DNA of 64,000 nt from Streptomyces chromofuscus (lineage in GTDB: Bacteria > Actinomycetota > Actinomycetes > Streptomycetales > Streptomycetaceae). The number at the start of each line of letters is the position of its first letter. Position 1 is the first letter of the stretch. The notes below the pieces were generated by a model that worked only from the letters and a program-made list of their open reading frames with translations, ran no database searches and was not told where the DNA came from. Positions 51,231 to 51,400 of this stretch are shown piece after piece. The DNA is taken from positions 3,971,501 through 4,035,500 of the forward strand of contig NZ_CP063374.1 in the NCBI RefSeq assembly GCF_015160875.1, given 5' to 3'. Both the position numbers and the translations under genes were made by a program.

Positions 51231-51400
51231 TCTCCCTACGCCGGCATTACCCGGTAACAGGTTCGGCGGTCGACGCAGCGGTTTCCGTCTGCCGGCGTTT
51301 CATGGGAAACATCACTCGGGCCGAGTCACGTTCCACGTGAAACATCGCGAAGACGGAGGTCAGCGCCCTCTCAGCCCGGTGCTCCGAGCTCCCGCGTGTA
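51231..51400 (-). promoter_or_regulatory. TPP riboswitch of thiC with an expanded P3 arm
   Basis: Read on the minus strand, conserved THI-element parts occur in order. GGGCTGAGAGGG (about 51366-51377) is the pyrimidine-binding side. GAACCTGTTACCGGGTAATG then CCGGCGTAGGGA (51232-51263) is the pyrophosphate-binding side and the P1 3' strand. Between them lies an unusually long P3 insert closed by CCGTCT/AGACGG. The final GGGAG lies next to the thiC start, suggesting occlusion of the ribosome site when TPP binds. Confidence 0.9.
51297..51343. repeat. inverted pair of parS-like sequences forming the riboswitch P3 hairpin
   Basis: GTTTCATGGGAAAC (51297-51310, two changes from parS) and GTTCCACGTGAAAC (51330-51343, one change) flank ATCACTCGGGCCGAGTCAC. 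The 47-bp block is itself nearly palindromic, so its RNA folds into a hairpin of about 23 paired positions with few mismatches. Confidence 0.75.

Follow-up and report, generated by a model that had tools for sequence, protein, structure and literature searches.

Why should the leader of a thiamine synthesis gene carry words that resemble parS, the site of the chromosome segregation protein ParB? The question is raised by the thiC locus of Streptomyces chromofuscus, where a first-pass annotation had noticed an inverted pair of parS-like sequences in the P3 arm of a TPP riboswitch. The window analysed here is a stretch of 64,000 nucleotides, positions 3971501-4035500 of the 7,483,282-base chromosome, and its own numbering is used below.

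The thiC leader and its P3 arm

The features of the locus are as follows.

49426..51222, minus strand: thiC, phosphomethylpyrimidine synthase, 598 aa (open frame and translation; close relatives in other genomes)
51216..51405, minus strand: TPP (THI-element) riboswitch aptamer in the thiC leader (RF00059, E 3.8e-05, 34.3 bits)
51285..51356, minus strand: P3 arm, with a basal helix (51352-51356 with 51285-51289), an internal loop and an extended parS-containing hairpin (fold z; pair counts in 45 same-length relatives)
51330..51343, minus strand: arm 1, the parS proper; RNA sense GTTTCACGTGGAAC, plus strand GTTCCACGTGAAAC, one change from GTTTCACGTGAAAC
51297..51310, minus strand: arm 2, putative RNA partner of arm 1; RNA sense GTTTCCCATGAAAC, plus strand GTTTCATGGGAAAC, two changes from GTTTCACGTGAAAC; compensatory changes support the pairing
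51311..51329, minus strand: element holding the distal helix (51325-51329 with 51311-51315)
51316..51324, minus strand: hypervariable loop, inside 51311..51329
51293..51296, minus strand: 3' half of the helix flanking both arms, its 5' half being 51344-51347 (pair counts)

The product of the frame at 49426..51222, taken to be ThiC, has its best 24 matches in named genomes in 23 Streptomyces and 1 Kitasatospora. The leader aligns with the RF00059 model over its full length (1-105) immediately 5′ of thiC, and the CUGAGA block and the P4/P5 block of the TPP core are both present; the alignment sets aside an 86-nt insert within P3. Its score does not attain the gathering score of 54.3 bits, so that it goes unreported at that threshold. 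Six relatives (three with a single parS, one with a 21-bp and one with a 33-bp double, and one without parS) score 37.7-45.7 bits, all below the gathering score as well. Since the parS-free leader also falls short, the low scores cannot come from parS alone, and a score cut-off is no part of the structure. A simple promoter and terminator scan of 51180-51520 found neither; by eye only, a TTGACG-17-TTGTAC pair was spotted at 51426-51398 on the minus strand. The divergent neighbour gene (51477-53330) has a very long Gly/His-rich N-terminal stretch followed by an apparent membrane domain.

The two parS-like 14-mers together span 47 bp of P3, and the numbers of changes that had been read from the sequence, two and one, were correct. 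As read from the sequence, arm 1 and arm 2 can form 12 standard pairs, one of them G-U, with two mismatches. Folding of the P3 element (minus strand, 51285-51356) gives −33.2 kcal/mol with a z-score of −4.40, a stability reached by 0 of 200 shuffles; the whole leader (51225-51400) shows no unusual stability, with 26 of 200 shuffles equalling it (z −1.13).

parS words in the window and on the chromosome

Nine words with at most three mismatches to GTTTCACGTGAAAC were found in the window, for a shuffle expectation of 0.84 and a largest shuffle count of 5. Over the whole chromosome there are 27 matches with at most two changes (18 perfect, 6 one-change and 3 two-change words). All but one of them, the thiC site included, fall between 3.90 and 4.18 Mb on the 7.48-Mb chromosome. 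This is the clustering known for oriC-proximal chromosomal parS, as judged from the positions of the sites themselves. With only 27 such places genome-wide, and 26 in one region, two words 33 bp apart are therefore not due to chance. Three further one-change sites of the arm-1 type occur in the same genome, away from the densest stretch of the cluster.

The window holds other parS words. At 19234-19247, a one-change parS, GTTTCACGGGAAAC, lies within a coding-like plus-strand frame (18980-20308), a setting that most parS do not share. A pair of perfect parS at a spacing of 38 bp occupies 40958-41009, and one member overlaps the region where a long coding-like minus-strand frame starts. The Streptomyces sRNA Scr3920 (RF02828, 149.9 bits) at 58181-58306 on the minus strand lies about 1 kb from a two-change parS-like word at 59329-59342. 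An RNA-family search round seven other parS loci of this genome returned tRNAs only.

Spread among Streptomyces thiC leaders

Of 392 genomes sampled from the genus, 267 match a thiC-type leader pattern with a long P3 and 99 match one with a short P3; among the short-P3 leaders listed, none was seen by eye to carry parS. We have fetched and classed the 150 leaders listed among the 267 long-P3 matches. A parS-type 14-mer is present in P3 in 118 of these 150, leaving 32 with none. The 118 carriers comprise 38 with a single copy (S), 26 with a double copy about 21 bp apart (D21) and 54 with a double copy about 33 bp apart (D33, the class of the window); the classes were split by insert length, and some D21 spacings are shorter (17 bp in two). 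In the 80 doubles the arms pair with each other, and in the singles parS folds on itself.

A pattern that joins the leader with parS matched 193 of 392 genomes, and its backward control matched 1 of 392; the matched letters were checked among the matches listed, and at most 189 of the 193 stand because G185, G289, G345 and G382 have no long-P3 leader, so that their matches lie elsewhere. Matches at G009, G077, G345, G382 and G185 were discarded, their letters being unlike thiC leaders. About half of the sampled Streptomyces genomes are thus without the pattern. In a sample of the family it occurred in 19 of 150 genomes, all within the 38 that belong to the genus; it was found in 0 of 112 genomes of 16 other family genera, whose leaders may not have the form that the pattern presupposes. 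Among 24 named leaders checked by eye, S. catenulae has a single copy, S. murinus and S. antibioticus have doubles and S. cirratus has none. Another place considered as a second parS-riboswitch case (G247, 722752) did not look like a TPP leader by eye; there, two perfect parS directly follow a terminator-like hairpin (L235, 160-300), so that parS adjoins a structured RNA.

The chance that the S. chromofuscus arrangement is a local coincidence in one genome is vanishingly small in view of the 118 of 150 leaders and of the 0.84 matches expected in the window at up to three changes. Absence of a P3/parS resemblance from related strains had been named in advance as what would speak for such a coincidence; the resemblance is there, and it is widespread in the genus, which lends good support to the earlier idea that a riboswitch stem has captured a parS.

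On the thiC tree, the presence or absence of parS changes 4 times and the four classes change 15 times. The carriers are rejected as a single clade (p-AU 0.005, on a quick thiC tree). When rooted with Actinocorallia and Nonomuraea, the tree has parS-free leaders at the base, singles next and doubles nested, with uneven support and with the two root rows not kept together. Distant carriers have the flank letters CCCAGCG in common. The tree is equally compatible with several gains, one gain followed by losses, and transfer.

Pairing and compensatory change in the RNA

Minimum-energy folds of P3 are cross-paired in 53 of 54 D33 and 26 of 26 D21 leaders and self-paired in 38 of 38 S leaders. For D33, an alignment of the 45 of 54 sequences with the exact length of 102 (44 distinct) gave 97.3% paired cells in the cross-arm structure, with 25 cells changed on both sides. 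The paired cells, the two-sided cells and the covariation score were each matched by 0 of 500 shuffles, and slid controls were lower in all three measures, one slide tying at 3 changed pairs. The two-sided changes are confined to three pairs; 180 of 500 shuffles have as many pairs of that kind and 192 of 500 as many pair types. Columns 34/60 (A-U 24, G-C 12, G-U 7) and 38/56 (A-U 24, G-C 11, G-U 7) form the strongest pairs, and the state of pair 34/60 changes 13 times on the thiC tree. A fold of the D33 leaders into two self-hairpins would still pair 94.9% of the cells but has 0 two-sided changes.

In the S class (30 of 38 sequences used), the self-hairpin has 24 two-sided cells (0 of 500 shuffles) in five pairs; the number of pairs changed was reached by 11 of 500 shuffles and the pair types by 330 of 500. 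In D21 (18 of 26 used), compensatory support is weak, with 3 cells (39 of 500 shuffles), and the number of pairs changed and the pair types were reached by 177 and 284 of 500 shuffles. All these shuffle figures overstate significance since the sequences are related. The compensatory changes that had been proposed as a check on P3 across Streptomyces are therefore found in the single-copy and the 33-bp classes, and weakly in the 21-bp class.

Imperfect inverted repeats can also correct themselves by template switching, and such quasi-palindrome correction, instead of selection on the RNA, could maintain complementarity between the arms. The 15 class changes on the tree would suit a process of this kind. 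It would restore the centre too, however, yet C stands opposite A at centre position 6 (0-based) in 45 of 45 D33 leaders, and several pairs occur in G-U forms, which correction would not create; we regard this explanation as highly improbable.

Unequal constraint on the two arms

The two arms are held unequally. Arm 1 differs from the parS consensus by 0 changes in 16 of the 118 carriers, by one in 101 and by four in one, i.e., by at most one change in 117 of 118, and it is a 14-bp parS palindrome or an accepted variant of it. The one-change forms are GTTTCACGTGGAAC (63), GTTTCACATGAAAC (31), GTTTCACGGGAAAC (5) and GTTCCACGTGAAAC (2), and two of these four changes occur together in arm 1 in no leader apart from that of G164. 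In this leader (L175) the roles are swapped, arm 1 having four changes and arm 2 one, and the hairpin is kept in the predicted fold. On the tree, the kind of change in arm 1 switches 17 times, and perfect versus variant only 5 times.

Arm 2 differs from parS by 0-7 changes, with at least two in 73 of 80 doubles, and in the window its two changes place it outside the palindrome and its accepted variants. Parsimony on the thiC tree gives 19 steps for arm 1, 42 for arm 2 and 86 for the nine-column loop in D33, 4 for arm 1 against 30 for arm 2 in D21, and 7 for the arm of S. Positions 12 and 13 of D33 are instructive in that A to G is pairing-neutral in either arm: here arm 1 took 0 and 0 steps and arm 2 took 5 and 6, a minority of the position-12 changes being A to C. 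Thus, arm 1 seems to be held by more than pairing. There is also a strand asymmetry in D33 arm 1, with 8 steps each at positions 11 and 8 and with 1 and 0 at the mirror positions 4 and 7; pairing can explain the asymmetry at position 11 but not that at position 8, and origin-side variants are too few for a comparison.

The changes in arm 2 follow the RNA. Departures at its ten stem positions retain a standard pair in 59 of 71 cases (27 of 27 in 18 D21 leaders and 32 of 44 in 45 D33 leaders). Its central four letters in the 45 D33 leaders are ACAC (22), CCAC (17), CCAT (4) and ACAT (2), never ACGT, which is found once in the 18 D21 leaders; at centre position 5, A stands opposite C in 39 of the 45. 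That arm 2 still looks like parS follows from the palindrome: the opposite strand of parS reads as parS again, so that any RNA partner of a parS arm must resemble parS, bound by ParB or not. The first-pass annotation had offered one or two weak ParB sites: arm 1 does have a recognised parS form, and arm 2 is better described as its RNA partner. The inverted duplication that it had suggested as the common origin of the arms is, for a palindrome, indistinguishable from a plain duplication, and close doublets are common nearby.

Comparison with origin-side parS

As a reference, we have collected 221 parS sites with at most two changes from 800 kb in 30 genomes. These origin-side sites are perfect in 209 of 221 cases, against 16 of 118 for arm 1, and none of the nine one-change sites among them carries the change that is commonest at thiC. 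Neighbouring pairs less than 80 bp apart number 46 among the 221 sites, and both members are perfect in 42 of the 46, unlike at thiC. By a crude GC3 test, coding-like surroundings were found for 34 of 221 parS versus 415 of 600 random places; parS being mostly outside coding-like stretches, its insertion into a tolerant leader stem fits this preference.

Reverse-complemented, the commonest arm-1 form, GTTTCACGTGGAAC, reads as the core of the Bacillus subtilis consensus parS, TGTTCCACGTGAAACA, as the latter is given in a passage of PMC7614844, and the window arm carries this 14-mer core. The exact 16-mer of that consensus is present in 37 of 118 carriers, in 35 of them as the reverse complement. 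What distinguishes the leaders is the orientation, which in the RNA sense nearly always puts U opposite G, not C opposite A, in the self-hairpin (63 versus 2, with related sequences counted separately). A fair description of arm 1 would be a real but second-rate, or differently tuned, ParB-type site, possibly second-rate because it is rarely perfect while origin-side sites mostly are.

It could be argued that the hairpin derives from parS but is now a relict unused by ParB, with selection on the RNA stem alone. The scarcity of perfect arms 1 in comparison with the origin side speaks for this, as does the constraint on the RNA pairing. Pairing, however, does not demand that arm 1 keep to at most one change from parS, as it does in 117 of 118 leaders, nor that its centre be ACGT, ACAT or ACGG, and arm 2 drifts by as many as seven changes; leaders without parS, moreover, use other P3 hairpins. 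On balance, we consider an RNA-only relict unlikely.

Discussion

Taken together, these comparisons suggest to us, with a probability of roughly 0.7, that P3 tolerates a ParB-type site which is under a double constraint, as DNA in arm 1 and as an RNA stem in both arms. The distal P3 hairpin in a large part of Streptomyces would then be built on a parS of the oriC-proximal cluster. P3 accepts inserts, and a palindromic DNA site may be insertable there because, once transcribed, it forms a hairpin that would merely prolong the stem; most likely, the riboswitch tolerates the segregation site because the site itself makes a hairpin. Arm 1 (51330-51343) would be retained in the DNA as a ParB-type site. 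In single-copy leaders it would pair with itself, and in double-copy leaders the second copy, about 33 or 21 bp off, would serve as its RNA partner, leaving arm 2 free to lose the ParB centre as long as its outer ten positions stay mostly pairable. ParB presumably binds arm 1 in vivo and the RNA element presumably binds TPP; we infer that the main benefit is to chromosome segregation, with thiC regulation merely left intact.

The leader shares with the known THI element (RF00059) its conserved core, its position upstream of thiC and a variable P3, and differs in that parS, as a lone palindrome or together with a partner, makes up the distal P3 helix, and in the low scores of the window and its six relatives (34.3-45.7 bits). 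With the Streptomyces oriC-region parS, as described in passages of PMC8743542 and PMC4852455, it shares the 14-bp word, the oriC-proximal cluster and the frequent close doublets. In contrast to those sites, the one at thiC sits in a structured mRNA leader and usually has exactly one change, and its second copy drifts yet mostly keeps its pairing with the first. Among the titles and abstracts listed by our literature searches, none places parS within a riboswitch; by word count, the main text of PMC12511625 contains neither thiC nor thiamine, and that of PMC8743542 neither thiC nor riboswitch.

Could ParB, once loaded on arm 1 of the leader, repress or pace thiC and so couple thiamine synthesis to origin segregation? 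By its position, the site should lie inside the leader RNA. ParB of S. venezuelae spreads 2.5-3 kb from parS, according to the text of PMC12511625, and in P. aeruginosa ParB represses genes adjoining parS3 and parS4, according to the abstract of PMC5521831; by analogy with these two cases, an effect on thiC is conceivable. The P. aeruginosa system likewise has parS beside genes, with possible repression, and differs in that its abstract names no riboswitch. Since the carriers are not one clade, the gain may have recurred or spread; losses or transfer explain this equally well, however, and about half of the sampled genomes do without a parS in the leader. We therefore judge such cross-talk very unlikely. 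The same holds for a more specific form, in which ParB on the P3 parS would alter transcription or co-transcriptional folding of the riboswitch, tying B1 synthesis to segregation, and in which the one-change parS would be a compromise for the shared stem; this, too, seems quite improbable.

If a segregation site is indeed tolerated in P3, one short sequence would have two readings, in the DNA as a palindrome that serves a segregation protein and in the RNA as a stem of a metabolite sensor. Because the genus has thiC leaders with none, one or paired parS, constraint on the DNA and on the RNA can be separated arm by arm, and these leaders allow a direct test of whether expression is affected when ParB has a loading site in the transcribed leader. 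They also call for caution: where a transcribed stem holds parS and a parS-like neighbour, the latter may be merely the RNA partner of the former.
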